This document shows, piece by piece, positions 13,264 through 50,280 of a DNA stretch of 64,000 nucleotides; the stretch's first letter is position 1, and the number at the start of each line of letters is the position of its first letter. Made by a program: the position numbers and the translations under genes. The stretch covers positions 1,757,743 through 1,821,742 of the forward strand of contig NC_089316.1 in NCBI RefSeq assembly GCF_036669915.1, written 5' to 3'. This stretch comes from Pocillopora verrucosa. Its lineage: Eukaryota; Cnidaria; Anthozoa; Scleractinia; Pocilloporidae. A model generated the notes under the pieces. The model saw only the letters and a program-made list of their open reading frames with translations, was not told the DNA's origin and did not search any database.

Positions 13264-15147
13264 ATGTCGTACATTGTGGAGCGATTTGAAGAAAAAGCTA
13301 GGTTTAAAAACGAAAGCGAAGCCGAACTGATTCGAGAGAGACTCGAAATACTTGTAAACAACATTGTAACCCAAATGGAAAAGCACGACAGCCGATTTCA
13401 GTGTACATTGGTCAAAAGCGGAAGTGTTTACGAAGGAACGAAAGTTTGCGAGCCGAATGAATTCGACTTCATGGTAAAGATAACCCCTCTTACAGACAAA
13501 CCATCAATCTTGCAGAGCTCCTGTGCGAGGGATGACGGCTACGTGCAGTTATCTCTTGAGGAAGATCAGTGGAAAGACTTCAGAGATGAAAAGGGCTTCT
13601 TCAGCCCATACTTGCTTTCCCGTCACTTCAAAAAACTTATCATGGAATCAATCTCTGATGTGGAAACTCCTGAAGGATTGAGCATTTACAGAGCTCCCCA
13701 GGACGAGTCGGAAGGACGTTTGTGGTTCCTTTATCGTGGAATACTTTGTGACAATGGTGAGGAAAATGCAGCTGGTGTCACATACTCCGAAACGCATGGA
13801 CCATCGACGACCCTCAATATTCATTGGAAAGGGGTCAAACCTTATGACAACTTGAAAGTGAATGTGGACTTGACGCCAACTATCGACCTGCCCATATCCA
13901 GTCTTCCCGTTCAGCCCATAACTGATGTACGCCCCGAAGTACTGCCAAAAATTCAAGGAATTCTACAGAAGACTGGATTCCATGTCGTTCCTGCTGGATT
14001 TGACGAGTGGCGCATCTCGTTTTCTAAGGCCGAGAAAGAAATTCTGGCCACTTCCCCTAACGGTTTTAAAGCATGTTACAAAGTCTTAAAAGTCTTACGA
14101 GATGACGTGTCTAAGAATCTGGGATTGAGGACCTCCTTGTTACCGTCGTACTTATTTAAGACTGTTCTCTTGTCCCAGTTGTTCACCAAAGATGTCCATG
14201 CCTGGGAGAAGGAGTTCCGATCTCAAATGATCATCGATGTTTTGGAGCTCATTTTGCAAGCAATAAAGCAGGAAAAGCTTCCAAGTTTCTTCATTCCCTC
14301 ATCTCTACTTCTATCCAAGGCACACGAGAACAGATTGCAGGAATGCCTCGTGGAAGACATGATAAACGAAGTGAAGGGCTTCAAAATGGCCAACTCATTG
14401 ATGGACGTTGAAGAGAAAAAACAACAGGTGAAGATTTTACAACTAATTGAGCTGTTGGAGTACATATTTTCGTGCCTTAAAGATGGAAAGAATCCAACTA
14501 ATGTTTGGAAAATGATGTTTGCTAACATCGACAGCGTACCTGGAGCTCGCACCGCTACAGAAAAATTTGACGTCAGTTGGATCGATATCATTGACGTAAA
14601 CGACAAAGAACTTTGCCCAGCCGCTTACAGGAATTTAAAGAAGACAATGAACATTTGGGAAGCCTTTGTACCGCTTTTTCGTGAAGCTCTTCAAGGTGAG
14701 GAAACACAACTGGCTCAAAAATACCAATTCTTCGTCTCCGAGAAGATAAAGAGATTCGAGGCCGAGCAGCCAGACCTGTCTAAAGAGGAAGTTCGACAAG
14801 TAGGAGCCTATGAACTTGTAAGCGACTGGCTTTTTGTCCACGTCGTTCAAAAGTACATGGAAAAAGACAATACGACTTTGTCAAGTACACACAAAATACT
14901 TCCTCTTGGATTCTGTCTGCCAGATAACAGTCCTTTTCAAGAAATTGCAGACATAGCCATGGAAAAAGGCAGCAAAGAGGGACTGGCTATTTTCGAGAAA
15001 GTTCTCAACAAGTACTTATCAGGGATTCCCGAAATCTTTATAATGATGGCCATTGTTTATTTTATCAAGGAAACGTTTTTACATTCAAAGGAAGCGCTGA
15101 AACTTAAACTTGATCACATCACTATTCCAAAGTTAGATTTAGACTAA
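13264..15147 (+). CDS. cGLR-1: cGAS-like receptor / Mab-21-type nucleotidyltransferase, intact, intronless (627 aa)
   Basis: cGAS-like receptors are cytosolic enzymes that sense foreign nucleic acid and make cyclic dinucleotides for STING. The core aligns with cGAS: G53-S54, then E66-F-D68 in PNEFDFM, a GPSTTL strand at 179-184, third metal residue D202 in NVDLT, and EWRISFSKAEKEIL at 248-261. The zinc thumb cluster of cGAS is absent. The fold continues to about residue 375 with the usual helices (HAWEKEF at 312, FFIPSSLL at 342). Residues about 380-627 are a helical extension I do not recognise. Start: M at 13264 (MSYIVERF) was taken because cGLR-4 begins there; an in-frame ATG lies 10 codons upstream. 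Single exon. It is head to head with the relic left-arm cGLR and converges on a broken SDR. Activity and ligand are inferred, not shown. Confidence 0.93.
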   Translation: MSYIVERFEEKARFKNESEAELIRERLEILVNNIVTQMEKHDSRFQCTLVKSGSVYEGTKVCEPNEFDFMVKITPLTDKPSILQSSCARDDGYVQLSLEEDQWKDFRDEKGFFSPYLLSRHFKKLIMESISDVETPEGLSIYRAPQDESEGRLWFLYRGILCDNGEENAAGVTYSETHGPSTTLNIHWKGVKPYDNLKVNVDLTPTIDLPISSLPVQPITDVRPEVLPKIQGILQKTGFHVVPAGFDEWRISFSKAEKEILATSPNGFKACYKVLKVLRDDVSKNLGLRTSLLPSYLFKTVLLSQLFTKDVHAWEKEFRSQMIIDVLELILQAIKQEKLPSFFIPSSLLLSKAHENRLQECLVEDMINEVKGFKMANSLMDVEEKKQQVKILQLIELLEYIFSCLKDGKNPTNVWKMMFANIDSVPGARTATEKFDVSWIDIIDVNDKELCPAAYRNLKKTMNIWEAFVPLFREALQGEETQLAQKYQFFVSEKIKRFEAEQPDLSKEEVRQVGAYELVSDWLFVHVVQKYMEKDNTTLSSTHKILPLGFCLPDNSPFQEIADIAMEKGSKEGLAIFEKVLNKYLSGIPEIFIMMAIVYFIKETFLHSKEALKLKLDHITIPKLDLD

Positions 15148-15489
15148 ACTGTAAAAAATTAAAATATCTCTTTCCTCGGCAAGGGAAAAGGTAGTCCTGA
15201 GGTAAATCTGAGTGTTCTGATTGGTTCATACTTGGTCAGTAAGTTGGCATACGGGGCCGTTTCCACGGAAATGTTCATAAGCCGTGTACTGTCAGGAAAC
15301 CAAAACTGTGGTTAGTCGGACCACTACACTGTATAATTTGCACAATTTTATAATTTTTTAATCGTGATTGATTGGGGGAGCCGAAAACGCCCAGAAAATA
15401 GGTAAAAAAAATATCAAAGGCGTTATCCTTGATTTCCGCCCAAATATTCGCGAACAATTTTAAATGCTTTGTCTCACTACATCTGACAT

Positions 15490-15875
15490 CAAGTTATTGT
15501 CGCTAGACTATACATACGCAAGTATTTTTTCCTCCCAGCGTTAGGATGTAAATAGCCCAAAATTGACATTTTATGTGCAATTTTATGTACAATATTGAAT
15601 AATGATTCTACTGACAAATAAAATTCAGTTGGTTACGATAAAGAAAACGCTAAGATAGGAGTAGTAATATAGAGACAGTATAGCGCCCAGCCAATCAGAA
15701 TCGAGTATTAAGGTCAAGTTATTTTCGCTAGACTATACATACGCAAGTATTTTTCCTCCCAGCGTTAGGATGTAAATAGCCCAAAATTGACATTTTATGT
15801 GCAATTTTATATACAATATTGAATAATGATTCTACTGACAAATAACATTGCAGTTGGCTTCCATAAAGAAAACGC
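15490..15875. repeat. Local direct duplication downstream of cGLR-1
   Basis: A block of about 165 bp starting CAAGTTATTGTCGCTAGAC (15491 on) is repeated from about 15714, separated by some 55 bp containing CAGCCAATCAGAATCGAG. The left palindrome arm has only one copy (about 11490-11650), so this arose in the right arm. Unit 2 has the same double copy at about 31843-32225. Confidence 0.7.
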
Positions 15876-16904
15876 TAAGATAGATGTTTTGAAAGTTGAT
15901 GGTATTAATAGTGAGACCCCACAGAAATGCTGAACTGAGATTGAGGAGAAGCCTATTACTCAAATAGATGTACAGTAATAAATTTGGAAAGCTGAGGCAC
16001 GCACAATTGATTGATTGATTGATTAACTGACAGACTGATTGACTGTTTGATTGATTGATGACTAATTATGGACTGACTGATTCAGGCTGAGTGAGTGACT
16101 TACTGACCAACTGATTGATTGATTATTTGATTAAAGTATTATTTGTGTAAGAAAGTGAAAGAAGCAGTTGATTTTCACTGCAGTCATATAACAAGTAAAG
16201 TGTTTGACAAAATGAATCTGTGGATAAATATTTTTGCTGAGGTTTAAGCTCTAACTTACTATAAATTTGTGAGCTGAAAAGTTCATGAGGTGTCAGTTGA
16301 GTCTCAATTTCTAGAGAACCACTCACACCCCAACATAAATATTCAATCATATTCTCCACACTGGTTCTTTCTACATTTCCTATGTTTGCTACTGTCAAGG
16401 AGAATTTATTTTGACAATCAAGTGCTACTTAAATTGGTAATCATATCCTCATTCTTTTGACCTTTATATTTGAAAGAGAAATTATGTGTAAATTAATTTG
16501 AAGCTTCAGTATCTCCCCAACCCCTGGACAGTTGAACTTTTGAAGATTGCTTTTTCCAAATATCTGTCTCCTGGGGCTTAAATTGTGTTTAAATGCCCAC
16601 GTGTTGGATTTGATGGTCAATTTAATTTTTAAAGGCATTCCCATACCTTGTAGACCTTTTTTATCTGGGCTATTCACATGCGCAATTGAATTCTTTATCT
16701 ATAAACACTTCCATATAACTTAATAAAACAAGTTCACTCTGCTGAAAATATTTGGCACTTCCAGCAGGGTTGAATTCTCCATCCCCCTGGCACAAGGGAC
16801 AGTCAAATGTTTCTGGGTTGCCCAGTGAGGTGGGGGGAGGGGGGGATGTCAAAGCTTCAAATTAATTGACACATTAGAAGCCAGTCACTCATAGGGGTGA
16901 AAGG

Positions 16905-17660
16905 TTAACCAGACTTCTTTTCATCTCTTGGAGTGTGTTCAGAGACTTTAACTTGAAGGAAGTCACTCAAAACAAGAAGAGTTTTAAATGGTAATATCCT
17001 GTAACAACATTAAAAAAACATCAAATTAATATCATGAGATGGCTCTTACAGCGAATGCTTGACAATACATACATAAAAGTGTTGAAGAAAGAAAGAAAAT
17101 TTAGGGAAGGAAACAATTGAAAATATGAAAACAAACAAAAGACAGAAAAGGAAGAATCTAATGGAAGTATACTTTGTCTAAACTTTTACTGTTTCTCATT
17201 CTGACATGAGCACGACTGAAAACAGTACAGTCCCTGAATTATAAGAATAAAAAATGACCATCTTTCACAATTGAGATTCAAACTGCCGAGTTGGGGCCTT
17301 TTGGCAAGAACATATATTGAATCTAGGTGGACCTGTTGGATATCAAAAATCTGCCATCCATCCAAGAGCAGTTAGGAATGTCCCCTGGCACTTCCAGCCT
17401 CAAACTATACAAGTTGTTCCTTACAGAAATAATCAATAAATCAGTCTTTACTGTGTAGGGTTGAACACAAGTCACTTAATGCCGGTTTTTCCCATTTCAC
17501 GCAGCTCCAAGGTTAATGATTGACTGAAACCTGTGGCACCAAATTTTGATGCACAGTAGTCAGTCAAGTTGGCTGTAGCAAAGCTGCCTGCTATGGAGGT
17601 TATGTTGACAATGTGGCCCTTGTTCTTCTCCATCATGTCTGGAAGGAATGCCCTCACAGT
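16905..17660 (-). pseudogene. SDR pseudogene (exon 4 part and exon 6 only), inverted
   Basis: Exon 4 begins at 17660 and keeps the NITSIAG, YCASK and GFSQSL blocks, then loses one base in the GIKVTC region. The remainder of exon 4, intron 4, exon 5 and part of intron 5 are deleted (junction near 17425-17445). Exon 6 (16998-16905) keeps its acceptor, with substitutions including Gly for the last Asp. Exons 1-3 were never included, because the palindrome arm ends in intron 3. It cannot make an enzyme. Confidence 0.9.
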
Positions 17661-18102
17661 CTACAGTGATAAAAATAAGTATTAATTTACAATAGTTTCT
17701 TGGAGCCCTGAGAGTGACTAGCATCTAATTTCTGCTTAAAACATCACCCCTGAATCACACATTAATGTTTCAAGATTGAAGGACAAAACTCTTGATTGTT
17801 CCACAAAATCTCCTTGGTACTATCTCAGGAGATGTATGGAGAACAGTTAATGGAGAATGTTCATACTGATGTTGGGATGTAAAAGATTAATACAAAATAA
17901 CATTTAAGGCAGAGATGCCATGTAAGCGAGCTGGTGATAGTCTTGAAATCAAATTTAAAAACACATGTTGACTATGGATCTGATTATTAAAATATTCTCC
18001 TTCCATTTAGTGTACATTTTCCTTTAAAAAAGTTGAGAGAGTTTGGTTCCAATTCTATATAACACACTCAAGAAGATAAAATTCTGGGAGAACTTAGAGA
18101 GT

Positions 18103-18712
18103 TCTGGGCTCACTTTGATTTTTTGGGGCCTTTTTGCCTTCGCCATGCCTGGACGACTTTGTTGAATTTTTTCTGCCTCACTGCTGGCTTTGATTGTTAG
18201 CCATGACTCTGGAAACCTGTTCAAGGCCTTCTCTTACATTCTTACGGCTGAAGAATCTTCTAGGCTTTTCCAGTAAGGCACCTGCATAGTACAGATGCTT
18301 AAGTTGCACAGCAATAGTACGCATTACATCTACACGAAATGTGGAACAAAACAATGAAAAATCAATCACTTTCTCACCTCAATTTGGAATTTTGAATAGT
18401 ATGCAAATGTAAATGAAAAAATGCCATTTTTACCTCGTTAATCGAGTCGCCGGTTAACAGAGTCAAGCCATCTTCTCAGTCGGGATGAAACGTTACCTTC
18501 ATGTATTCATTGACATCGCCTTCTACAACATCGTTGTTGATTTCGTGATCGCTTTCACAGGAATCACTGTCGATGTCAGCTCTGACTTTCTTGGACTCTG
18601 ATGTCCTGTCGATTGCTACTTGCTTCGAATTCCAAACACCGAACAGCTTTTTGTGCCGCTTTATTTTGTAAGATTACAGACGCAGTGATTCAGTAAGTTC
18701 AAGCTTGGTCAT
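18103..18712 (-). pseudogene. Decayed exon-like sequence of an unrecognised gene
   Basis: On the minus strand an ATG at 18712 opens MTKLELTESLRL, then a TAA (18676-18674). The same frame stays open for 65 codons (18673-18479) with an acidic Asp/Ser/Glu stretch (DIDSDSCESDHE) ending near a GTAACG donor-like site. A second open segment at 18369-18178 follows a GTAG acceptor-like site. Both recur at about 34930-35540, with the same internal TAA. It looks like part of a gene copied with broken reading; family unknown. Confidence 0.35.
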
Positions 18713-20205
18713 CTCATTACGCGTAAACATCGGAGCGCGCGCGCTAACTATTGATTTAACTTGAACATTTTTATTCTGTGATCATCTGGCGAAATGTTAC
18801 AAGAGTTTGTATGGAAATACTTACGACCGTTCTTAGGAATAAAAAATACAGTCAAATTCTGAATACAAAATACCTCACCTCACTTCCACAGTGCGTCGCT
18901 TAGTATATGACCGCTTCATGTTGAAAAGAACCTGTTATGTTGAAAAGAATCTGTTATCCATTTCTAGGTTTACTACGTACATAAGAAAGGCTCCTAGATA
19001 ACTGATGATGTGCTCCCTTTATTTTGCAAACAGTGAAGAGTGTTGGTCTACAAAACTGATGAAAGGAAATGCAAACTTGCTAAAACAGCCTATCTTGGTC
19101 CAAATGATGATAAAGATGCAAATATTAATGATAACCAAAAAAAGGATGGCACATTCAGGTGGCCAAAACAGAGAGACACTGACATAGTCAGCCATAGATA
19201 TATCTTCACATGTGCAAGAGTGCAGAAAGTTGGTAATTGTTTTGTTGTTAGTTCCCTTGAGAGTATTGATCACAAGTGTAAAACATATCAAGAAATTTAC
19301 ATGAATGCTGTTACACAAGTAGACATTATAATAACTGTCCATAACATTTTACACATGATATTAGACGAAGGAAATGATATTTGAAGTTTACATGAGGAGC
19401 TTTGGACCCCCAAAAAATTCGCAACATGCATTCTACGGAGGCGCTATATTTCTGTCATCAGTGTAGAGAATTACATCAACGTTTGCGGTCGATAGGTGTC
19501 TATACGGTTACTTAAACCTGTTGATTATAAGTTAAAGGTTCACCTAATAATTAATACTTCATCTATGCTCGAATTTCAATTACGAAAACACAAGAAATCT
19601 GGCATTGAAATCACTTGGCGCGATCTTATCATGGAGGCCGAAGTCTTCGATCGATCGGCTGAGCTTTCTATAGTTACGGGATCCAATCTTGACCCCAAAA
19701 AGTACTGGTATGTGCTAACGAAAAGTTAATGTGAAATCAGGCCGAAAACTTTTGCAAAGAACGAATTGTTTCGTCGATTCCGAGTTGAATACAATATGTT
19801 CTGTCCCGCCAGCAGGTCTCAAGCGCGCCAACAAAGGCTGTTCGTTCAACGCCGAGTAACCAAACAACATGCATGTTATATCTTCAATTGGTCTCCGTGC
19901 CGGACTAATTAATTAGACAGGGAGAAATCCAGCAGATGGATTCGCAAGGTCTCAAAACATAATCTTGTTGTTGATACGGTAAATCAAATCGCCCTCGACC
20001 GTACACTTTAGGCGGGCAAAGGCCTCCGGTCGAAATATCATGAGAAATTGCAATGATGTCAGTCAAGAATAGCCGAGCGAGCATTCGGGAACTAGTAAAG
20101 GATCATAATTAAATAAGTTAATGGTGGATGCCTAAACTTTCAGTCAAAAGAAAGAGTCCAGACAAAGAGCGGTCTCCTGATATAAAATAGTGTGGATTCA
20201 ATTTT
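18713..20205. other. Orphan duplicated segment with a 114-codon open frame
   Basis: An open frame at 19040-19384 (plus) is also open at 35866-36210 in unit 2, with four amino-acid differences. It begins at GTG next to a CAAACAG acceptor-like site, so it would be an internal or terminal exon. It has no recognised motif; a TFRWPKQRDTDIV segment and four cysteines stand out. A further frame at 19496-19729 (RLLKPVDYKLKV, then RKHKKSGIEITWRDL) is cut short in unit 2. Coding status is unproven. The remainder, about 19730-20205, shows nothing. Confidence 0.3.
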
Positions 20206-21102
20206 TCGTGCCCTCTTGGGTAGTGTATACCCGAGGATTACCTTTAATCTCTTGCATACCTTCTTGGGTAGTGTATACCTGAGGGTTGTTTTAATCTCTT
20301 GCATACCCTCTTGGGTAGTGTATACCTGAGGATTATTCTTAATCTTATGCATACCCTCTTGGGTAATGTATACCTGAGGGTTTTTTTAATCTCTTCTATA
20401 CCCTTTTGGGTAATGTATACCTAAGGGTTTTTTTAATCTCTTGCATACCCTCTTGGGTAGTGTATACCTGAGGGTTATTCTTAATATCTCCTATACCCTC
20501 TTGGGTAGTGTATACCTGAGGGTTATTTCAATCTCTTCTATACCCTCTTGGGTAGCGTATACCTGAGGGTTATTGTTAATCACTTCTATACCCTCTTGGG
20601 TAGTATATACCTGAGGGTTTTTTTAATCTCTTGCATACCCTCTTGGGTAGTGTATATCTGAGGGTTATTTTTAATCACTTCTATACCCTCTTGGGTAGTG
20701 TATACCTGGGTTTTTTTTTAATCTCTTGCATAGCCTCTTGCGTAGTGTATACCTGAGGATTATTTTCAATCTTATACATACCCTCTTGGGTAATGTATAC
20801 CTGAGGGTTTTTTTAATCTCTTCTATACCCTTTTGGGTAGTGTATACCTGAGGGTTATTTTTCATCTCTCCTATACCTTCTTGGGTAGTGTATACCTGAG
20901 GGTTATTCTTAATATCTCCTATACCCTCTTGGGTAGTGTATACCTGAGGGTTATTTCAATCTCTTCTATACCCTCTTGGGTAGCGTATACCTGAGGGTTA
21001 TTTTTAATCACTTCTATACCCTTTTGGGTAGTGTATACCTGAGGGTTTTTTTAATCTCTTGCATACCCTCTTGGGTAGTGTATACCTGAGGGTTATTTTT
21101 AA
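20206..21102. repeat. 48-bp minisatellite, unit 1 (about 19 copies)
   Basis: Tandem repeats of 46-49 bp, each with TACCCTCTTGGGTA (a 5-bp stem with a 4-base loop) followed by GTGTATACCTGAGGGTTA. Copies vary by a few bases and by the length of a T run. Because 48 is divisible by three, open frames of 16-residue repeats appear on both strands. The right end joins directly to the start of unit 2 at 21103. Confidence 0.92.
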
Positions 21103-21141
21103 TGGACATCCATTTGGAGTGTTCTGGAGTAGACAGAATTA
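21103..21141 (+). pseudogene. Last 39 coding bases of the orphan gene, start of unit 2
   Basis: This is identical to 5341-5379, including the stop codon, and continues into the copied 3' flank. It is preceded by minisatellite, not by the gene, so it is a leftover that marks the duplication junction. Confidence 0.85.
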
Positions 21142-22212
21142 AACTTCTCCTTTAAATTGAACGATCTAGAAGGCTTAGATTTACACAACGAAATAGTTCA
21201 TGTGTGCCTGCCCCGTTGGAAAAGGCCATGCCCTAAAGAATAACGGAATTTTACGATAAATATTTACATCACGGAAGCCAGCTCTGAACGGTCAAAATTT
21301 CTTCTTTTTGCTCATTAAAAAGCATGACATATGAATTTATGAATCTTATAAACGAGAATGCTTTACTTTGAAATAGAAAAGATTCAAATTTATTTTCTAT
21401 TTGAATCCTTCAACGTATTAATCTTAATCTCTTGTGGCAGACTTCTTTTAACTTACAGCATTTTCTTAGTCTTGTACAAACACCTAATTTTCCTTTTACT
21501 CTATCAGTTCATGTTGCTTATAGTGAAGATGAAGTTATAATTTGAGAATTCTCCTACTTACTTGATCGTGAAAAATATCTATTTATCATGACACTTAGAA
21601 TAAAAAATCATCTTTCTCTTCTTTCTTTGTCTGAGAGTTATTTGTCGAGGACGACGTGACTATTATTCTGATAATCTCCAAGACAGTTCCAAGCCTGAGG
21701 CGAGTAGTTGTTTTATAATAGACTTTGAATGTGTATCAAGAGCTCGGGGCCAATTACAGCCAGCTCAACCCGGTAAGTTTAGCGCCCCTTATCGTTGCTT
21801 CATTACAATCCGTTAAATTTTATTCATCTTGAGTTATCCTGGTTTCTTCTTTATTATCATTTGACCTGGCGCTAATCGCATGGGGTAGCTTCTCTTAGAT
21901 CATTTTCTCTTGAATTCTGCAACCGAAAAGTGCATTCGTAGAACGAGGACAAACATAGAAATAAAAATTAAGCAATTGAGTAAAATCCGTGCAAAAGTAT
22001 GCATAAGGTGACATTAAAATTTATTCGATTCTGTGTGGCAAAGGCAGGCACCCAGGCAGTCCTCTCGTTCCCATTCTTTCTCTTCTTTTTCACTTTACAA
22101 CTTTGCGTGACACAAATATTAGATCACGTGATAACCCCTGTTGATTTGTTTCTGGACCGCAGCGTCACTCGCACAGCCTGCAGACTTTTCATCCATTTAA
22201 TTCCCTGCGACG
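21142..22212. other. Gene-free stretch before SDR-2
   Basis: Copy of 5380-6450 with scattered substitutions. No exon, RNA gene or clear promoter motif is seen. Short open frames at 21358-21540 and 21999-22250 lack splice support. Confidence 0.5.
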
Positions 22213-25200
22213 ATGTGGCTGATTTTCGAGATCTTTGTGGTGTACTTTAAGCTTGTTTTTTATTGGCTGGAAGCAGCTTTTCGTCGAATTATTCCTCCAC
22301 CTAAGAAAAACATCGAAGGCCAAACGGTGTTGATCACAGGTGAGGCACAGCACGTCTCAATGATATTGCTAAAGCTGCTACAGGCGTTGCTCACGATATA
22401 GGAAGGATTGATCCTACTCAAAATTTGGTGTGCAAACAGCTTTGGATATTTTTTTTTGCTATAGACGTTTTACTCGTGCATTTGAGATACCATCTTCTCT
22501 CATTAGAATACTGGTCCAGTGACCTCCAGAATTAATTTAAGTTGATTTTTTTTCTTGCCTATTGATTAGCTATAACAGTAAGGACAAAATTATGTGTGCA
22601 TTTCAACTCTGCATGTTTTTATCGATGTTCTACATGAGCATTTGAGATATTTTCCATCTCGGTATGCCAAAAAACTGATCCACTGACCTCCAGAAGGTTA
22701 TTTCTTGCTTACTGCTCCTGTAACAATAGTGAATAATTAAATATAAAATTATGCGCGATTTCCATACGATTAAATTAATGCTAAGAGTGTTCGACAACTC
22801 GTCATTCCTTTTGATGGTAAGAAGGAGCAGAATTTCAGATCTCAGTTCATTTTATAACGCAAACCGTTCAGTTTTATATTTAAACGATAAATGTCTCCTT
22901 TATCGATATACTTTCGACAATGCATGCGTAATCGGTAGAAGGTACTCTCTGGATCAAGTTTGTAACCTCTTCGTTGTTTTAGAGATGTTGAAGTTAAAGC
23001 GCTCAATGTTTTCTTCTTATTTCATAGGTACCTTATATCTTATGAACAAGATTTATGATTTAATTACTTTTGAACGTTCAGCCACTGAGCACTACTCAAA
23101 CCTCACTGATAATGATTTAGAAGTAATTAAATTTTCCAAGGTGTGGTATTCAATTTCACGATAGTCCTTGTAACAAGTGGTCCTGGAAAGCTGCCCTTTA
23201 CATTCATTATTGAGATATTTATGCTTTGGAAATTAAACCAATAAAATATCAGCACAGAGCTTAAAAGACATGCATTGCATTAGGTTTTAAAATTCAGCTT
23301 TGGACCAATTATATTTCTGGGATTTTCAAGAAAATAGGGGCCTGATTCTACTTGTTGAAATACATATATCAGATGTTTTGGTATGTAGTATCGCTGAGTA
23401 TTTTTACAAGGTGTGCTGTACTTTGATAAGCCCGTAGGGGCTTGTCAAAATACAAACAACAAGTAAAAATACTCAGCAATACTACACACCTTAATGTCTA
23501 GTGAGTTATTTGTTATCCAACTTCTTGTTTATCTGCTAAGTCTTTCTACTCATTTCTCATAGGGCGGGAAAAGCAAAGCAGATAGATAAACATAGTGCGC
23601 ACTGCTGACTGGTTAAACAGGTTTTTTTACAGTACAAAATAACCAACTGTCCAAATAGCCATACAATATTGCAGGATATCTGTTCTCTATTCATGTGTTA
23701 TTTGTTCTTTACTTTGTGCCATTGGATAATAAATGCTGCATATTTACATGTCTTTTGTTTTGCCGATTTTCATTTAAGGTGCTGGTGGTGGGATTGGTAG
23801 ACTACTTTCTCTCCAGTTTGCTGCTCATGGAGCAAAACTTGTCCTGTGGGATATAAACAAAGGTAAGTTACAAAAGAAGAAGATGACACAACACCCCTGG
23901 CCAGGCCGCATGCTCTGAATAATTAAAACCTGGGCCCCTTGATCTGAAGACAAAGGCATCTCTGCTCTCCAGAAAGATGGCTGTTAACCCTTTAACCCCC
24001 ATGAGTGACCAAGACAGAATTTCTCTTAACAATATCAATTCATTATCAAGCAGACAAATGATGAGAAACAAGAAAAATATCAATTAGGGGATTATCAGTT
24101 GATCCAATACCAAATTCTCCAAAGTAACACCACAAGACTTATATGGAGGACAGTAAGGAGAATTACTAATGAGATCTTGGAAGTTAAAGGGTGAACTGGT
24201 TTGTAGGCTTCAAGATGATCAGTGTAATGTAAGAAGGTCACATCATAGAGGGATTGCCAACTTTTAGGTGACAGTGATTTGAACAATTCTTTTTGTGTAG
24301 ATTCAAATGAAGAAACTGCTGCACAAGTCCGTGCCCTTGGTAGGGTCGCTCACACCTATATTTGTGACTGCAGCAACAGAGAGGATGTCTATCGTGTTGC
24401 TGCAAAGGTGCAGCGTGAAGTTGGTGAAGTGGACATATTGGTAAACAATGCTGGAATCTTGTCTGGAAAGAAACTGTTGAATCTAAAAGATGTAGAGATT
24501 GAGAGAACCATGAGAATTAACACTCTGGCACACTTCTGGGTAAGGTTTGAACTCTCTAAGTTCTCCCAGAATTTTATCATCTTGAGTGTGTTATATGGAA
24601 TTGGAACCAAACTCTCTCAACCTTTTTAAAGGAAAATGTACACTAAATGGAAGGAGAATATTTTAATAATCAGATCCATAGTCAACATGTGTTTTTAAAT
24701 TTGATTTCAAGACTATCACCAGCTCGCTTACGTGGCATCTCTGCCTTAAATGTTATTTTGTATTAATCTTTTACATCCCAACATCAGTATGAACATTCTC
24801 CATTAACTGTTCTCCATACATCTCCTGAGATAGTACCAAGGAGATTTTGTGGAACAATCAAGAGTTTTGTCCTTCAATCTTGAAACATTAATGTGTGATT
24901 CAGGGGTGATGTTGTAAGGGGAAATTAGATGCTGGTCACTCTCAGGGCTCCAAGAAACTATTGTAAATTAATACTTATTTTTATCACTGTAGACTGTGAG
25001 GGCATTCCTTCCAGACATGATGGAGAAGAACGAGGGCCACATTGTCAACATAACCTCCATAGCAGGCAGCTTTGCTACAGCCAACTTGACTGACTACTGT
25101 GCATCAAAATTTGGTGCCACAGGTTTCAGTCAATCATTAACCTTGGAGCTGCGTGAAATGGGAAAAACTGGCATTAAAGTGACTTGTGTTCAACCCTATA

Positions 25201-26207
25201 CAGTAAACACTGGACTAGTGTGGTATCCAAAGGCTCGGTAAGCCAGTCAACCGGTCTCTACAGGCATTCCTTAGTTTTTCAGAGACTGGAAAATTTTCTG
25301 GCTCAAATGCCATTGGAAAAATTTAAATGGCCTGAGCCATTTGTTTATCAGTCTGCTCTGGTAATTATTTGTTTGTTTTATCTGTAGTTTTCCATCACTA
25401 TACCCAGTCCTCGAGCCAGACTATGTGGCCAAGGAGGTTGTGGCAGCCACTCTTAGAGATGAGGAAATTCTCTTAATTCCCCGTGCTCTAGCTGTGAACT
25501 TCTTTTTGACTGGGTAAGTCATCATATGCTGCCATCATCCTTAGGCTCTCTAGCTGGGATTTGTCACTCCACAAATCTTAACAACATCTGGTCCCACAGA
25601 GCAGCTAACCCTAGCTGTGTCTGCATCCCTGTATCTATAGATCTCAACTGCTGTGTGATAAGCTGTATGTTTATTGACTATTTCTGAAAGGAACAACTTG
25701 TATAGTTTGAGGTTGGAAGTCCCAGGGGACATTCCTAACTGCTCTTGGATGGATGCCAGATTTTTGATATCCAACAGGTCCACCTAGATTCAATATATGT
25801 TCTTGCCAAAAGGCCCCAACTCAGCAGTTTGAATCTCAATTGTGAAGGATGGTCATTTTTTATTCTTATAATTCAGGGACTGTACTGTTTTCAGTCGTGC
25901 TCATGTCAGAATGAGAAACAGTAAAAATTTAGACAAAGTATACTTCCATTAGATTCTTCCTTTTCTGTCTTTTGTTTGTTTTCATATTTTCAATTGTTCC
26001 CTTCCCAAAATTTTCTTTCTTTCTTCAACACTTTTATGTATGTATTGTCAAGCATTCGCTGTAAGAACCATCTCATGACATTAATTTGATGTTTTTTTTT
26101 AATGTTGTTACAGGATATTACCATTTAAAGCTCTTCTTGTTTTGAGTGACTTCCTTCAAGTTGGAGTCTCTGAACACACTCCAAGAGATGAAAAGAAGTC
26201 TGATTAA
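22213..26207 (+). CDS. SDR-2: SDR16C-type short-chain dehydrogenase, complete duplicate of SDR-1
   Basis: Exons 22213-22339, 23779-23862, 24301-24539, 24993-25237, 25388-25513 and 26114-26207, with the same phases and splice sites as SDR-1, give 304 residues. By eye only one residue differs (Lys164 to Glu), alongside about two silent changes. Cofactor and catalytic residues are unchanged: TGAGGGIG at 42-49, N144, S172, Y185 and K189. Intron 1 (about 1.4 kb) contains a 137-codon open frame at 22751-23164 that is interrupted in unit 1 and so is probably not a gene. The same MITEs lie in introns 2 and 3 and at the stop codon. Confidence 0.93.
23995..24197 (+). repeat. MITE-like element, family A, in SDR-2 intron 2
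   Basis: Copy of the element at 8214-8428, carried along by the segmental duplication. It is a few bases shorter: one GAATTATTACTAAT repeat is contracted. Confidence 0.7.
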
Positions 26208-26989: not shown

Positions 26990-27121
26990 TCAAATAATCA
27001 ATCAATCAGTTGGTCAGTAAGTCACTCACGTAGCCTGAGTCAGTCAGTCCACAATAAGTCATCAATCAATCAATCAATCAAACAGTCAATCAGTCTGTCA
27101 GTTAATCAATCAATCAATCAA
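26990..27121. repeat. Microsatellite (ATCA)n, unit 2
   Basis: Counterpart of 11222-11353, with different repeat number and interruptions. Confidence 0.85.
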
Positions 27122-38262: not shown

Positions 38263-39101
38263 CTTTTCTTATCCCTCCTAACTCGGCAGTCGTGTAAGAC
38301 GATATTCATACGAGTGAATTTGTTCCCAATGACCTAAAATGCAATAACAATGTTTTAGACCAGCTTCTCCCCTGTTAAAGTCGATTTTGGCAAGACTGAT
38401 GTCTTCGGAAAAGCTAAAAGTGCCGTTCCAAACTGAAACCTTCGCACATAAAAAGTCATTATAAGAATAATTGCATTGCGCCGAAGCTTGTGGACCGAAC
38501 GGGGAGACCATCAGTTGAAAGCGATGTGTATTCTCTGAATTATCTAATCAACACAGTTTCTGGACTTTAAAAGTTAAAAACCATGACCTGTATAAAGAAG
38601 GGTTTGTCGGAGTTAGCCTTAAATAGGCCTAGGTCTTCGATCATGAAGGTGAAATCAGCTTTACCGGTGCCGCTTTTTAGACTATTTTTAGTTTCTTCGT
38701 TTTACGTGCTTTTAATTGTTCCTGTTATATGTTTCTGTAACATTTGATCAGGAATACTTGTGGACCTTGTGTTAACAATTTACTGTTGTCTTCTTTAGAC
38801 ATGTATTATCTCTAGAGAGAAAATAAGCTTAGCGTACCGCCCCTTAAGTTTTTTCGAATTAGACCCGTTAAGTTTGTATGAGACAATTCTCTGGAATCTT
38901 GTTTCTGGAAAATGAGTGAACAAGGTAGAGTTGTTTCTTGAAAAATATTAGAAATGTAATCATCGGAAGTTGCGGTTTTTTCCATTTCATTCGAGGGGAG
39001 AATAATTACATTTATTGAAGCGATTATCGGATGTCCTGGAATGTTTAGCGAACACCTCATGCCACCAAGAGGCGTCGAACCTTGGCTCGAATTACTTATG
39101 C

Positions 39102-39142
39102 AAATTAGCTGGCTGCACATTGAATGTGCAGCCAGCTAATTT
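39102..39142. repeat. 41-bp palindrome (20-bp arms, 1-base spacer)
   Basis: AAATTAGCTGGCTGCACATT is followed by G and then its exact reverse complement. It would extrude as a hairpin or cruciform. No flanking transposon signature was seen. Confidence 0.9.
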
Positions 39143-40140: not shown

Positions 40141-40142
40141 GT

Positions 40143-41205
40143 GCTTGGAGCTGCGTGAAATGGGAAAACTGGCATTAAAGAGACTTGTGTTCAACCCTAC
40201 ACAGTAAACACTGGACTAGTGTGGTATCCAAAGGCTCGGTAAGCCAGTCAACTGGTCTCTACAGGCATTCTTTAGTTTTTCAGAGACTGGAAAATTTTCT
40301 GGCTCAAATGCCATTAAAAAAATTTAAATGGCCTGAGCCATTTGTTTATCAGTCTGCTCTGGTAATTATTTGTTTGTTTGTTCTGTAGTTTTCCATCACT
40401 ATACCCAGTCCTGGAGCCAGACTATGTGGCCAAGGAGGTTGTGGCAGCCACTCTCAGAGATGAGGAAATTCTCTTAATTCCCCGTGCTCTAGCTGTGAAC
40501 TTCCTTTTGACTGGGTAAGTCATCATATGCTGCCATCATCCTTAGGCTATCTAGCTGGGATGTGTCACTCCACAAATCTTAACAACATCTGGTCCCACAG
40601 AGCAGCTACCCCAGCTGTGTCTGCATCCCTGTGTCTATAGATCTTAACTGCTGTGTGATAAGCTGTATGTTTATTGACTATTTCTGAAAGGAACAACTTG
40701 TATAGTTTGAGGTTGGAAGTCCCAGGGGACATTCCTAACTGCTCTTGGATGGATGCCAGATTTTTGATATCCAACAGGCCCACCTAGACTCAATATATGT
40801 TCTTGCCAAAAGCCCCAACTTGGCAGTTTGAATCTCAATTGTGAAAGATGGTCATTTTTTATTCTTATAATTCAGGGACTGTATTGGTTTCAGTCGTGCT
40901 CATGTCAGAATGAGAAACAGTAAAAATTTAGACAAAGTATGCTTCCATTAGATTCTTCCTTTTCTGTCTTTTGTTTGTTTTCATATTTTCAATTGTTTCC
41001 TTCCCAAAATTGTCTTTCTTTTTTCAACACTTTTATGTATGTATTGCCACGGATTCGCTGTAAGAGCCATCTCATGATATTGATTTGATGTTTTTTTTAA
41101 TGTTGTTACAGGATATTACCATTTAAAGCTCTTCTTGTTTTGAGTGACTTCCTTCAAGTTGGAGTCTCTGAACACACTCCAAGAGATGAAAAGAAGTCTG
41201 ATTAA
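40143..41205 (+). pseudogene. SDR partial copy (end of exon 4, exons 5 and 6), third locus copy
   Basis: The match begins inside exon 4 at the LELREMGK codons and has lost one base in the following A run, so the frame is broken. Exon 4 ends at 40248, exon 5 is 40389-40514 and exon 6 is 41112-41205, with normal splice sites. It marks the third, truncated copy of the SDR> <cGLR arrangement. Confidence 0.88.
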
Positions 41206-42786
41206 CCTTTCACCCCTATGGGTGACTGGCTTCTAATGTGTCAATTAATTTGAAGCTTTGACATGCCCCCTCCCCCCCCACCTCACTGGGCAACCCACAA
41301 ACATTTGACTGTCCCTCGTGCAAGGGGGATGGAGAATTCAACCCTGCTGGAAGTGTCAAATATTTTCAGCAGAATGAACTTGTTTTATTAACTTATATGG
41401 AAGTGTTTATAGATAAAGAGTTCAGTTGTGCGTGTGAATAGCCCAGATAAAAAAAGGTCTACAAGGTCTGATCATGCCTTTAAAAATTAAATTGACCATC
41501 AAATCCAACATGTGGGCATTTTTAAAATTTTTGTGTTTAAAAACACAATTTAAGCCCCAGGAGACAGATACTTGGAAAAAGCAATCTTCAAAAGTTCAAA
41601 TGTCCAGGGGTTGGGGAGATACTGAAGCTTCAAATTAATTTACACATAATTTGTCCGTGCAATAACACCCCTGAATCAAATATAGAGGTCAAAAGAATGA
41701 GGATATGATCACCAATTTAAGTAGCACTTGATTGTCAAAATAACTTCTCCTTGACAGTAGCCAACATAGGAAATGTAGAAAGAACCATGTGGAGAATATG
41801 ATTGAATATTAATGTTGGGGTGTGAGTGGTTCTCTAGAAATTGAGACTCAACTGACACCTCATGAACTTTTTAGCTCACAAATTTGTAGTAAGTTAGAGC
41901 TTAAACCTCAGCAAAAATATTTATCCACAGATTCATTTTGTTAAACACTTTACTAGTTGTACGACTACAGTGAAAATCAACTGCTTCTTTCATTTTCTTA
42001 CACAAATAATGCTTCAATCAAATAATCAATTAATCAGTTGGTCAGTAAGTCACTCACTCAGCCTGAGTCAGTCAGTCAACAATTAGTCATTAATCAATCA
42101 ATCAATCAATCAAATAGTGAATCAGTCTGTCAGTTAATCAATCAATCAATCAATTGTGCTTGCCTCAGCTTTCCAAATTTATTACTGTACATCTATGTGA
42201 GTAATAGGCTTCTTCTCAATCTCACTTCAGCATTTCTGTGGGGTCTCACTATTAATACCATCAACTTTCCAAACATCTATCTTAGCGTTTTCATTATGGA
42301 AGCCAACTGCATTTTATTTGTCAGTAGAATCATTATTCAATATTGTATGTAAAATTGCATATAAAATGTCAATTTTGGGCTATTTACATCCTAATGCTGG
42401 GAGGAAAAAATACTTGCCTATGTATAGTCTAACGACAATAACTTGATGTCAGATGTAGTGAGACAAAGCATTTAAAATTGTTCGCGAATATTTGGGCGGT
42501 AGTTAGGGATAACGCTTTTTATATTTTTTTCACTTATTTTTTGGGCGTTTTCGGCTCCCCCAATCAATCACGATTAAAAAATTATAAAATTGTGCAAATT
42601 ATAGAGTGTAGTAGGCCGACTAACCGCAGTTTTGGTTTTCTGACAGTACACGGCTTATGAACGTTTCCGTGGAAATGGCCCCGTATGCCAACTTACCGAC
42701 CAAGTGAGAACCAATCAGAACACTCAGATTTACCTCAGGACTACCTTTTCCCTTGTCGAGGAAAGAGATATTTTAATTTCTATATC
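41206..42786. other. Shared SDR/cGLR tail, third copy
   Basis: Contains the nested MITE composite (about 41203-41820), an (ATCA)n microsatellite at 42020-42152, and the convergent 3' flank of the next cGLR. No gene seen. Matches 10439-11979 and 26208-27742. Confidence 0.7.
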
Positions 42787-44579
42787 TTAGTCCAAATCTA
42801 GCTCTGCACAGGGGATAGGCTTTTGCTCTGGAATAGTGATGTGATCAAGTTTACGTTTCAGCGCTTCCTTTGAATGTACAAACAATTCCTTGAATCCCTG
42901 ATAAGTACTCGTTGAGAACTTTCTCGAAAATAGCCAGTCCCTCTTTGCTGCCCTTGTCCAAGGCTATGTCTGCAATTGCTTGAAAAGGACTGCCATCTGG
43001 CAGACAGAATTCAGGAGGAAGTATTTTGTGTGTACTTGGCAAAGTCGTATCGTCGTTATCCATGTATTTTTTAACGACATGGACGAAAATCCAGTCGCTT
43101 ACAAGTTCACAAACTCCTACCGGTCGAACTTCCTCTTTAGACAGGTGTGGCTGCTCGGCCTCGAATTTCTTCTTCTTCTCTGAGATGGAGAATAGGTATT
43201 TTTGAGCCAGTTGTTTATCCTCACCTTGAAGAACGGCAAACAAAAGCAGTACAAAGGCTTCCAAAATGTTCCATATTTTCTTTAAATTCCTGTAGGCGGC
43301 TGGGCGAAGTTCTGTGACGGTCACGTCTATGATATCGATCCAACTGACGTCAAATTTTTCTGAAGCGGTGCGAGATCCAGGTACGCTGTCGATGTTGGCA
43401 AACATCATTTTCCAAACATTAGTTGGATTCTTTCTAACTTTAAGGCACGCAAATATGTACTCCAACAACTCAATTAGTAGTAAAATCTTCACCTGTTGTT
43501 TTTTCTCTTCAACGTCCATCAATGAGTTGGCCATTTTGGAGCCCTTCACTTCGTTGAGCATGTCTTCCACGAGACATTCCCGCGATCTGTTCTCATGTGC
43601 CTTGGATAGCAGTAGAGATGAGGGAATGAAGAAACTTGGAAGCTTTTCCTGCTTTATTGCTTGCAAAACGAGCTCCAAAACACCGATGATCATTTGAGAT
43701 CGGAACTCCTTCTCCCAGGCATGGACATCTTTGGTGAACAACTGGTACAAGAGAACAGTCTTAAATAAGTGCGATGGTAACAAGGAGGTCCTCAATCCCA
43801 GATTCATAGACACGTCATCTCGTAAGACTTTTAGGACTTTGTAACATGCTTTAAAACCGTCAGGGGAAGTGGCCAGAATTTCTTTCTCAGCCTTAGAAAA
43901 TGAGACGCGCCACTCGTCAAACCCAGCAGGAACGACATGGAATCCAGTCTTCTGTAGAATTCCTTGAATTTTAGGCTGTACTTCGGGGCGTACATCAGTT
44001 ATGGGCTGAACGGGAAGACTGGATATGGGCAGGTCGATAGCTGGCGTCAAGTCCACATTCACTTTCAAGTTGTCATAAGTTGTACCCCCTTTCCAATGAA
44101 TATCGAGGATCGTCGATGGTCCATGCGTTTCGGAGTATGTGACACCAGATGCATTTTCCTGGCCACTGTCACAAAGTATTCCACGAAACAGGAGCCACAA
44201 ACGTCCCTCCGACTCGTCCTGGGGAGCTCTGTAAATGCTCAATCCTTCAGGAGTTTCCACATCACAGATTGATTCCATGATAAGTTTTTTGAAGTGACGG
44301 GAAAGCAAGTATGGGCTGAAGAAGCCCTTTTCATCTCTGAAGTCTTTCCACTAATCTCCCTCAAGAGATAACTGCACGTAGCCGTCATCCTTCGCACAAG
44401 AGCTCTGCAAGATTGATGGTTTGTCTGTAAGAGGGGTTATCTTTACCATGAAGTCGAATTCATTCGGCTCGCAAACTTTCGTTCCTTCGTAAACACTTCC
44501 GCTTTTGACCAATGTACTCTGAAATCGGCTGTCGTGCTTTTCCATTTGGGTTACAATGTTGTTTACAAGTATTTCGAGT
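42787..44579 (-). pseudogene. cGLR-3 pseudogene
   Basis: Matches cGLR-1/2 from about codon 28 (44579) to the stop (42789-42787). The 5' end is missing: at 44579 the sequence changes to SMNDC1 downstream flank. An in-frame TAG replaces the codons around LEEDQW (near 44354). A deletion near codons 590-600 (about 42885-42900) joins SGI to a new frame. The catalytic blocks VKSGSVYEGTKV, PNEFDFM and NVDLTPAID remain readable, so it died recently. It lies in the original convergent orientation to the SDR fragment at 40143-41205. Confidence 0.9.
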
Positions 44580-44599
44580 CATGTCAGTTGAGAATGCAC

Positions 44600-45976: not shown

Positions 45977-45983
45977 CCTTGGG

Positions 45984-47000
45984 CATGAAGAAAGTTGGAA
46001 GCTTTTCCTGCTTTATTACTTGCAGAATGAGCTCCAAAACGTCGATGATCGTTTGAGATTGGAGCTCCTCCCAGTCATGGACATCTTTGGTGAACAACTA
46101 GGTCAAGAGAACAGTCTTAAATTTTTACGATGGGACTAAGGAGACCCTCAATCCCAAATTTACAGACGGCGTCATCTCATTTGTAACCTGCTTTAAAACC
46201 GTCATGGGAAGTGGCCAGAATTTCTCTCCCGGCCATAGAAAACGAGATGCGCCACTCGTCAAACCCAGCAGGAACGGCGTAGAATCTAGTCTTCTGGGGA
46301 ATCCCTTGAATTTTTTTGCTTCGGTTCGTAGAACAGGAAGCTTGGATATGGGCAAGTCCATAGCTGGTGTCAAGTCCACATTCACTTGTTATAACGTTTG
46401 CCCCCTTTCCAGCACATATCGAGGGTCGTCGATGGTCCATGCGTTTCGGAGTATGTGACACCAGATGCATTTTCCAAAGTATTCCACGAAACAGGAGCCA
46501 CAAACGTCCCTCCAACTCGTCCTGGGTAGCTCTGTAGATGCTCAATCCTTCAGGAGTTTTCACATCACATGTTGATTTCATGATAAGGTTTGTGAAGTGA
46601 CGGAAAAGCAAGTTTGGACTGAAGGAGCCTTTTCATCTCTGAAGTCTTTCCACTGACCTTCCTCAAGAAATAACTGATCAGCAAGATTAATGGTTTGTCT
46701 GTAAGAGGGGTTATCTTTACCACGAACTCGAATTCATTCGGCTTGCAAACTTTCGTTTCTTCGTAAACCATTTATGAAGAAACGAAAGTCATGGTCAACG
46801 CATGGTCAAAAGCGGAAGTCACTTCCGCTTTTGACCATGCGTTCAAAAATCTTGGATCGCGTTTTCCTATATCTGCCATGATGTCGGTGACAAGCGTTTC
46901 GAGTCTCTCTCTCGTATTAATTCGGCTTCGCTTTCGTCTTGAAACCTGGCTTTATCTTCGAAATTTTCTAAAATTTCTGACCTGATAAGGGTTCTCGCCG
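45984..47000 (-). pseudogene. cGLR pseudogene, heavily decayed
   Basis: Scattered matches to cGLR on the minus strand from the N-terminal DKARFQDESEAELIRE (about 46950) to FIP codons about 345 (45984), with many frameshifts and small deletions. Its 46751-46843 part holds two inverted-repeat insertions, one of them a 47-bp palindrome built from the KSGS-coding sequence. No C-terminal third. Confidence 0.85.
46797..46843. repeat. 47-bp palindrome inside cGLR pseudogene
   Basis: Two exact 23-bp inverted arms (46797-46819 and 46821-46843) separated by one C. A smaller inverted pair, TTTCGTTTCTTC and GAAGAAACGAAA, lies just left of it. The arms are coding sequence of the cGLR GS-motif region copied in both orientations. 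Confidence 0.9.
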
Positions 47001-48432: not shown

Positions 48433-50280
48433 CTAATCTAGATCCAACTCTGGAATTGAGACATGCTCAAGTTTAAGTTTCAATACTTCTTTGGCATGAA
48501 CAATTATGTGCCTGACATAGTCAACAATGCCGTCCATGAGGTACTCCTCAGGGACCTTGAAAAGGTACTGCTTTAATTGCTGTTTCAGCTGAGCAAGGCC
48601 TCTGCTACTGCCCTCTCTCGTTGCCACTTCAGCAACACCCTGGAAGAAACCTGATGATTTAAATTCAGGACGGATTGCTTTATGAAGGTTTGGCAAAGTT
48701 GAGTTTTCTTCCTCGACGTAACAGTCAACAAAACTATCATCTATAAACTCCAAGGCAAATTGATGGAGGGACACTTTTCCAACTTCATTTTCTGTTAAAC
48801 GCATATGTTGACGCTCGAAGTTCTCTTTCTTCATAAAAAGTAAGATCTTAAACTTCTGAGCCAATAAGTTCAGTTCCCCTTTGAGTGCGGTTAATAATTT
48901 CCTGAAGAAATCTTCCGTGAAATTCCATATCTGAATCAACTTGAAATAAGCTTTCTCACTAAGCTCTGTGCAGTTAAGGTCGGTAAGCTCATTCGTGAAC
49001 CAACCATGCTTTCTAGCGTTTGGGACGTTGTTGATGTTGACAAACACTTTATTCCAGACAACAGAAAGATTCTTTCCACGAAGAAAAGACGAGATCATGT
49101 AGTCGAGGACATCAACCATTTCCAAGACCCTTATCTGCAGTTTTCTTTCTCTAGCTTCTTCCCTAGAAAAGGCCATTTCTGTTCCTCTCATCACACGCAG
49201 CATTTCCTCCAAGACACACTGGCGCAGCTTGTTCTCGTGATCGGATGGAGAAAGCAGGTTGTACCTCCTCAGAAAGCAACTCTGAATCTTTTCCGCTTTC
49301 ACACCTTGGATAACGTGATCCAAATGTTCGATTATCGTTTGGGAGCGACGATCCTTCTCCCAGGGATGACCATTCGTGAACAGCTGAGAAAGAAGAACTG
49401 TCTTGAACACGTACGACGGAACCAGAGATGCATCCCATCCAAGATTCTCACACACAACATCTCTCACGATTTTCAGTATTCGGTAGCACGTTTGGAAGCC
49501 GTCAGAAGAAGATGCCAGAACTTCTTTCTCGACCACAGAAAACGAAATGCGCCAACTGTCAAGTCCCGCGGGAACGACGTGAAATCCGCACCTCTGAAGA
49601 ATGCTATTCGCCTCGGCCAAAGGAATTTCTGCCAACGGAACAGGGAGTTTGGATATGGGGTAATCTATGGACAGTGTTAGATCAACACTCATCGTTAAAT
49701 CCTTGTAACTACTTCCTCCTTGCCACCGTACATAAAGTGTTGTAGCTGGACCATGATTTTCCGAGTACATAGCACCAGATTGGCTTTCTTCGCCACTTTC
49801 TCCGAGCAGATCTGCATACACAGGCCACCACGTTTCTTTAAATAATGATGGTCTCGTTCGTAGTACGGCCAAACCTTCAGGTACTTTGATATCGTCAAGC
49901 GATTTATTCACAAGCTTCTTGAAGAAGCGGGACAGCAGATTTGGACTGAAAAAGCCATCGGCATCTTTAAAGTCTTCCCATTCACGGCTTTCGAGGGAGA
50001 GCTTCGCATATCCATCGCCTTTGTCACAGGGACAAAGTAATGGCGTGTTCGTAAGAGAATCCATTTGAATCATGAAGTCAAACTCATTTGGCTCACGAAC
50101 TTTGGTTCCTTCGTAAACGCTTCCGCTTTTGACCAATGTACTCTGAAATCGGCTGTCGTGCTTTTCCACCTGGGTTACGATGTTTCTTACGAGGATTTCG
50201 AGTTTCTCTCGAATCAATTCGGCTTCGCTTTCGTTTATAAACCTAGCCTTTTCTTCAAATCTCTCCACAATGTACGACAT
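48433..50280 (-). CDS. cGLR-4: divergent cGAS-like receptor, intact, intronless (615 aa)
   Basis: Complete frame from MSYIVERF at 50280 to TAG 48435-48433; there is no in-frame ATG upstream, which supports this start for the family. The catalytic set is present: G53-S54, E66, D68 (PNEFDFM) and D200 in SVDLT. WRISFSVVEKEVLASS follows, there is no zinc thumb, and the C-terminal extension of about 240 residues (KLKLEHVSIPELDLD at the end) is kept. Residues 1-70 are about 93 percent identical to cGLR-2 (five changes), but the rest is only about half identical, so the 5' end seems to have been homogenised. Upstream, the CCATATTAGG box sits at the same distance as in cGLR-1. This gene is probably the oldest intact type and may sense a different ligand. 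Confidence 0.93.
   Translation of the reverse strand: MSYIVERFEEKARFINESEAELIREKLEILVRNIVTQVEKHDSRFQSTLVKSGSVYEGTKVREPNEFDFMIQMDSLTNTPLLCPCDKGDGYAKLSLESREWEDFKDADGFFSPNLLSRFFKKLVNKSLDDIKVPEGLAVLRTRPSLFKETWWPVYADLLGESGEESQSGAMYSENHGPATTLYVRWQGGSSYKDLTMSVDLTLSIDYPISKLPVPLAEIPLAEANSILQRCGFHVVPAGLDSWRISFSVVEKEVLASSSDGFQTCYRILKIVRDVVCENLGWDASLVPSYVFKTVLLSQLFTNGHPWEKDRRSQTIIEHLDHVIQGVKAEKIQSCFLRRYNLLSPSDHENKLRQCVLEEMLRVMRGTEMAFSREEARERKLQIRVLEMVDVLDYMISSFLRGKNLSVVWNKVFVNINNVPNARKHGWFTNELTDLNCTELSEKAYFKLIQIWNFTEDFFRKLLTALKGELNLLAQKFKILLFMKKENFERQHMRLTENEVGKVSLHQFALEFIDDSFVDCYVEEENSTLPNLHKAIRPEFKSSGFFQGVAEVATREGSSRGLAQLKQQLKQYLFKVPEEYLMDGIVDYVRHIIVHAKEVLKLKLEHVSIPELDLD

Follow-up and report, generated by a model that had tools for sequence, protein, structure and literature searches.

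A window of 64,000 nucleotides from the stony coral Pocillopora verrucosa (NC_089316.1, here contig C5, positions 1757743–1821742 of a 353-Mb, 52-contig genome) contains a cluster of three intact genes of the Mab-21/cGAS-like receptor (cGLR) superfamily together with five damaged relatives. It is considered about evenly balanced whether these genes encode active cGAS-like cyclic-dinucleotide synthases that feed STING and are triggered by a positively charged or protein ligand, which seems more likely than DNA or RNA, in a cluster that grows and decays by duplication, inversion, and sequence exchange. Three uninterrupted open reading frames (ORFs), reported in a preliminary description of the window, were confirmed. 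Gene 1 (P0001; 13264–15147, + strand) is a single ORF from ATG to stop that encodes 627 amino acids, with a Mab-21 nucleotidyltransferase domain at residues 56–262, a Mab-21_C domain at residues 269–361, and a C-terminal module at residues 362–627. Gene 2 (P0002; 29612–31495, + strand), also of 627 residues, lies inside the second copy of a tandem unit of ~16 kb and is 97% identical to gene 1. Gene 3 (P0003; 48433–50280), with 615 residues and 49% identity to gene 1, lies on the opposite, minus strand, a detail absent from the preliminary description. The genes had also been called intronless, which agrees with one ORF per gene at the level of genomic sequence alone, where an intron in the 5′ untranslated region could still be present.

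Both Pfam domains were found above their curated cut-offs in all three intact genes, Mab-21 (PF03281) with E values of 4.6e-17 to 7.6e-17 and directly after it Mab-21_C with E values of 1.3e-11 to 6e-6. When PDB sequences were searched with gene 1 alone, cGAS-like receptor 1 (8gjy, 9.5e-13) and cGAS (4jlx, 8.4e-12, which we take to be the pig protein) were retrieved ahead of Mab21L1 (5e-7) and MB21D2 (0.96). A profile made from four full-length proteins, namely genes 1, 2, and 3 and a relative elsewhere in the genome (L013), matched cGLR1 8gjy at 1.7e-16, pig cGAS at 3.4e-15, and Mab21L1 (5eog) at 5.2e-9, with matches that extend from the nucleotidyltransferase core into the helix bundle on its C-terminal side. 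Judged by these domains and structural relatives, the window genes belong to the Mab-21/cGLR superfamily, as had been proposed, and an identity as Mab21L1/2 is disfavored because cGAS and cGLR1 match better. The superfamily is defined as the clade with Pfam PF03281 (Culbertson and Levin 2023, PMC10732462).

The catalytic residues of gene 1 are G53 and S54, E66, D68, and D202, with aligned equivalents in gene 2, gene 3, and L013, and in the profile alignment the GS, E66, D68, and D202 positions fall on the corresponding motif positions of cGAS. In cGAS the GS, E, and D positions are catalytic, and the zinc thumb is formed around H-CC-C ligands; no zinc-thumb insertion was found at the aligned place relative to pig cGAS. 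An intact catalytic site and a missing zinc thumb, both claimed beforehand for the intact genes, therefore held up in the motif check and in the alignment with cGAS and characterized cGLRs. The further claim that the motifs are spaced as in cGAS was correct for the GS-to-E distance of 13 residues and the E-to-D distance of 2 and incorrect for the third position, with 134 residues from D68 to D202 versus 94 in pig cGAS, the latter counted by eye. The longer loop is not odd for this genome, because in the 33 Mab-21 rows with a full catalytic set the third-D spacing varies between 96 and 370 and comes close to 134 in L013 (133), L022 (132), and L036 (134).

The genome contains 59 places that match PF03281, which bears out the expectation of an expanded Mab-21 set in this animal. 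Fifty Mab-21 rows were aligned, with about a dozen of the 59 places outside the alignment; nine ORF rows that were duplicates, fragments, or window genes under a second name had been removed beforehand. The full catalytic set (GS, [DE]x[DE], third D) is kept in 33 of the 50 rows, and the same alignment shows changed site residues in the Mab21L1-type gene of the genome (L001, 420 bits to 5eog). A tree was built from 49 rows, all from the genome itself (no reference cGAS, MiD51, or ITPRIP) and with the truncated L011 omitted. The window genes and L013 group together with full support (100/100, bootstrap/Shimodaira–Hasegawa-like approximate likelihood ratio test), and this group is nested in a 16-row clade (100/99) with ankyrin-fused and short basic proteins. 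Catalytic residues are kept in all 16 rows of the clade versus 17 of 33 elsewhere in the tree. A topology that unites the window group with L001 is disfavored (p = 0.020 in the approximately unbiased test), with the reservation that the group was chosen after the quick tree had been seen and that the branches are long. L013 (C2 17861653–17863509) is intact, shares 46% identity with gene 1, and is the one further full-length member of the subfamily found elsewhere in the genome, so the cluster represents three intact genes plus debris rather than a large subfamily expansion.

All four full-length proteins are acidic, with isoelectric points (pI) of 5.37 for gene 1, 5.02 for gene 2, 5.76 for gene 3, and 5.29 for L013, and their cores alone have pI values of 5.06–5.56 and net charges of −8 to −16. 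DNA- and RNA-sensing cGLRs are reported to have pI values above 8.5, on the DTASelect scale as compared with the Biopython scale used here (Li et al. 2023, PMC9980059). The same paper describes some auto-active cGLRs as acidic, proposes that they answer a positively charged, non-nucleic-acid ligand, and names the ligand of acidic cGLRs as an open question. Given the acidity of full-length proteins and cores alike, the trigger of the window proteins is more likely to be a positively charged or protein ligand, and a nucleic-acid trigger appears doubtful.

A search of the same genome for STING, suggested in the preliminary description, gave eight places above the Pfam cut-off for PF15009. Six form a tandem cluster of STING ligand-binding-domain loci within ~25 kb at C1:7932859–7958062 (L059–L062, L064, and L066), and two more lie at C8:13098719 and C1:79749. 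The eight are referred to as STING loci and not as working genes because in two of them the matched stretch holds a stop. Judged by eye, one STING exon (L062) is nearly identical, across about 130 residues, to the PDB STING 8efn and another (L060) is ~90% identical to the PDB STING 8gjz, both of which we take to be Stylophora pistillata proteins. This likeness lends indirect support to a cnidarian origin and points to a pocilloporid coral, most likely Pocillopora. The presence of STING loci in the same genome makes STING a plausible reader of the window-gene product. In the mechanism proposed here, a caged core would be formed by the nucleotidyltransferase lobe and the helical Mab-21_C lobe, in which the GS loop and the carboxylates of E66, D68, and D202 would hold two metal ions and nucleoside triphosphates. 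Triggered by a positively charged or protein ligand, for which the C-terminal module would offer a candidate binding site for the ligand or a partner, the enzyme would join the nucleoside triphosphates into a cyclic dinucleotide to be read by the STING proteins of the same genome. The synthesis step itself is likely, given the conserved site.

The C-terminal module follows a complete catalytic core and comprises ~265 residues (residues 362–627 of gene 1; 14347–15144, + strand), with equivalents at 30695–31492 (+ strand) in gene 2 and 48436–49215 (− strand) in gene 3. It had no significant match in Pfam, with none near a cut-off even at E values up to 10, and no significant match among PDB sequences, where the best hit, XRCC4, had an E value of 0.25 and was taken as chance. 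When the genome was searched with the module of L013, seven places were returned, all within the window subfamily and none in the ankyrin–Mab-21 fusions, and hhalign comparisons with the tails of the genome's other Mab-21 proteins gave a probability below 2% in 10 of 10 cases. Substitution rates show constraint on the module, with a rate of replacement substitutions (dN) of 0.43 and of silent substitutions (dS) of 2.1 between gene 3 and L013, and a dN of 0.55 and a nearly saturated dS between genes 1 and 3. An IPxLDL end is common to all four full-length proteins. AlphaFold2 with four window rows gave nearly all helix at a mean predicted local distance difference test score (pLDDT) of 46.0, a confidence too low for a fold search and no more than a hint of an all-helical module. 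As a best guess, the module may be the site of contact with a ligand or partner. More tentatively, and less likely than not, the proteins would form a coral cGLR subfamily in which an undescribed all-helical module with an IPxLDL tail senses a non-nucleic-acid signal, either cationic or a protein, and thereby turns on synthesis of the cyclic dinucleotide. The paralogs would then diversify in the module while sequence exchange keeps their promoters and initial ~70 codons alike.

The cluster has been shaped by local duplication with decay, so that the birth and death of the array set out in the preliminary description was borne out. Two adjacent copies of the ~16-kb tandem unit, at 5339–21103 with gene 1 and at 21102–38277 with gene 2, are ~97% identical over most of their length (alignment blocks of 97.1% over 7171 bp, 96.6% over 4421 bp, and 97.2% over 2772 bp) and 94.8% identical in one stretch. 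Further copies are found inverted at 40144–44580 and diverged at 49274–53917. The two units differ by a two-copy 159-bp repeat at 29239–29557 and by the length of a 47/48-bp minisatellite that ends each copy (20211–21103, ~19 repeats; 37032–38277, ~26 repeats) and may mark a recombination point. The duplications also carry short-chain dehydrogenase exons, at 8482–9472, 24249–25241, and partly 34238–34486, with the Pfam match coming from the first copy. Between gene 3 and genes 1 and 2, amino acid change is constrained in both core and module (dN 0.28–0.55, dS from 1.6 to saturation).

Gene 3 is a mosaic by sequence comparison, with a start and upstream DNA like those of gene 1 and a module nearer to that of L013. 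Its residues 1–70 are identical to gene 1 at 64 of 70 positions versus 48 of 70 for L013, and its module is identical to that of L013 at 123 of 256 positions versus 92 of 258 for gene 1. Over ~700 bases upstream, genes 1 and 3 share 75% identity, and in 30-codon windows past codon 60 they share 48–78%. The simplest account appears to be a sequence exchange that spread the promoter and the N terminus, which is favored over constraint on the N terminus alone because constraint would leave the likeness of the upstream DNA unexplained. Growth and decay of the cluster would thus have involved segmental duplication, inversion, and sequence exchange. A CArG-box in the promoter was rejected, with 4 matches in the window versus 5.7 expected and none at that place in gene 2.

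Several points weigh against active cyclic-dinucleotide synthases with a ligand other than nucleic acid. Intact catalytic residues alone do not prove activity, and Li et al. (PMC9980059) state in their account of Mab21L1/2 that these proteins have complete putative sites and no known product. The high-confidence cGLR motif given in that paper, h[QT]GS-X8-20-[DE]h[DE]h-X50-90-h[DE]h, is not matched to the letter by the window genes, which have KSGS in place of h[QT]GS and a gap of ~130 rather than 50–90. The published string looks stricter than the family, because the PDB cGLR1 8gjw likewise has KSGS, with a corresponding gap of ~100 as estimated by eye. Two other features of high-confidence cGLRs, the catalytic residues GS, [DE]x[DE], and D at aligned positions and homology across core and helix bundle, are present in the window genes. 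Since the literal motif is absent, the claim made for these genes stops at membership of the superfamily and a cGLR-like mode of action and does not extend to the high-confidence list. Structure prediction, proposed in the preliminary description as a check on the fold, was carried out with AlphaFold2 for the full protein with three window sequences in the alignment and gave a pLDDT of 36.4, below usable quality and too low to judge the fold. The pI of a whole protein reflects only crudely how its binding face is charged. Between genes 1 and 2 there are 9.5 silent and 19.5 replacement changes, with a silent divergence of 2.4%, and constraint is indistinguishable from neutrality (p = 0.07–0.14).

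There are two other accounts of what the proteins do. The preliminary description regarded them as active cGLRs that sense double-stranded RNA (dsRNA) or double-stranded DNA (dsDNA) and make a cyclic dinucleotide, which fits catalytic residues and a core as in cGAS and the report that, of 15 active cGLRs studied in depth, 9 are activated by dsDNA (2) or dsRNA (7) (PMC9980059). The charge of the proteins weakens this account: full-length pI values of 5.0–5.8 stand against values above 8.5 in known sensors, for which reason it was set aside for the window genes, and basic Mab-21 proteins of the same genome, such as L005 (pI 9.51) and L042 (pI 9.34), fit the role better. Nucleic-acid sensing by the window proteins is judged improbable. 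An account in which the proteins are non-catalytic or differently catalytic and work through contacts with other proteins, such as the activation of a kinase, would accommodate the departure from the published motif and could use the extra C-terminal module as a contact domain. Shrimp Mab21 proteins set a precedent that also weighs against cyclic-dinucleotide synthesis, as they are reported to bind IKKε, to lack binding to dsDNA and dsRNA, and to yield no cyclic GMP-AMP (cGAMP) when exposed to DNA or RNA ligands (PMC12928593). The contact account is opposed by the retention of the catalytic residues in proteins as diverged as gene 3 and L013 and throughout the 16-row clade, and a role by contact alone is rated as rather unlikely.

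The duplication itself might be questioned, as units that are ~97% identical and adjacent within one contig could be uncollapsed haplotypes assembled in tandem, with genes 1 and 2 as alleles. A divergence of ~3–5% exceeds that expected for most alleles, the units differ in structure by the 159-bp repeat and the minisatellite, and gene 3, like the inverted damaged copies, clearly stands apart; an assembly artifact is thus very unlikely. Active synthases with a positively charged or protein trigger, in a cluster that arose by local duplication, remain the preferred reading.

In comparison with known systems, the window proteins share with animal cGLRs (Li et al. 2023, PMC9980059; 8gjy, 8gjw) the two-domain core and the GS/ExD/D residues, and with 8gjw the KSGS, but they add the 265-residue C-terminal module, have a longer D-to-D spacing, and are acidic. 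Core domains and catalytic residues are likewise shared with vertebrate cGAS (pig 4jlx and others), from which the window proteins differ in having no zinc thumb, an acidic rather than basic charge, the extra module, and a D-to-D spacing of 134 rather than 94. Mab21L1/2 (5eog) belong to the same superfamily and match more weakly, and the Mab21L1-type gene of this genome, L001, is separate. Among coral cGLRs, Pd-cGLR of Pocillopora damicornis is described as auto-active and acidic (pI 5.0), and Sp-cGLR2 is named beside it for a predicted negative ligand face (PMC9980059); the window proteins are likened to these two by description and not by sequence, and to Pd-cGLR in acidity. The same paper lists 42 cGLRs and 7 STINGs in S. 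pistillata and states that 87% of cGLRs have no appended domain, with ankyrin, tetratricopeptide repeat (TPR), multi-cGLR, and death-domain fusions named for the remainder.

Large coral cGLR sets, accompanied by several STINGs and with ankyrin-fused and acidic proteins among them, are already in print (PMC9980059). The mosaic make-up of the cluster and the C-terminal module private to this subfamily may be new, as no mention of either was found in the literature at the level of titles and abstract openings. A word search of the available text of the Astrangia poculata genome paper (PMC12005167) for cGAS, STING, Mab-21, cGLR, and cyclic GMP-AMP found none of these terms. With three intact paralogs (four with L013), an apparently intact core, a removable private module, and several STING loci in the genome, the cluster makes non-nucleic-acid sensing by a cGLR, and the part responsible for it, directly testable. 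It is also an example, from an early-branching animal, of an immune gene family whose copies arise and decay locally and apparently exchange sequence.

The five damaged relatives reported in the preliminary description are present, all on the minus strand. The copy at 42790–44578 is near full length, with 87% identity to gene 1 over residues 27–591, and is interrupted by an in-frame stop and by a frame break close to the end; its first ~26 codons were not found. The copy at 45981–46980 covers residues ~2–345 in three frames with several stops, and that at 51780–52091 is an N-terminal fragment (residues 1–106) with 90% identity to gene 3 and two stops. C-terminal ends only are left at 11983–12410, split over two frames, and at 27746–28174, its counterpart in the second unit, where the aligned piece has one stop. 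The statement that all copies carry the GS, PNEFDFM, and VDLT motifs applies to the intact genes (three of three) and, by exact pattern, to one of the five damaged copies (42790–44578). The fragment at 51780–52091 has GS and EFDF only, the copy at 45981–46980 has VDLT only, and the remaining two have none of the three motifs because only their C-terminal ends remain. A C2H2 zinc-finger ORF with ten matches lies beside the cluster at 58622–59557 (+ strand).

In searches beyond the superfamily, NCBIfam gave a CBASS cyclase match (E 0.059, far below its cut-off) that covers the GS region of gene 3 and a RimM match at chance level, and no relative of the window genes was found among phage records and viral contigs. 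Elsewhere in the genome, ankyrin-repeat and Mab-21 fusions (L006, L020, L024, L025, L026, and L055) share the 16-row clade and the intact catalytic residues of the window genes and carry their ankyrin repeats at the N terminus, each in a single long open frame, which in L025 ends at the locus edge. Other Mab-21 proteins with long tails are L032, L034, L038, L048, L049, L050, L029, L035, L046, L054, and L056; among the scanned tails, L035 and L046 have TPR matches slightly above the cut-off. A second cluster on C5, at 13.01–13.13 Mb (L041–L045 and L047), encodes short Mab-21 proteins in open frames of 336–430 amino acids, with the full catalytic set in six of seven and AS in place of GS in L047. 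These proteins are basic where the pI was computed (L042, L043, and L045), and on sequence grounds they would suit a role in nucleic-acid sensing better than the window genes do.

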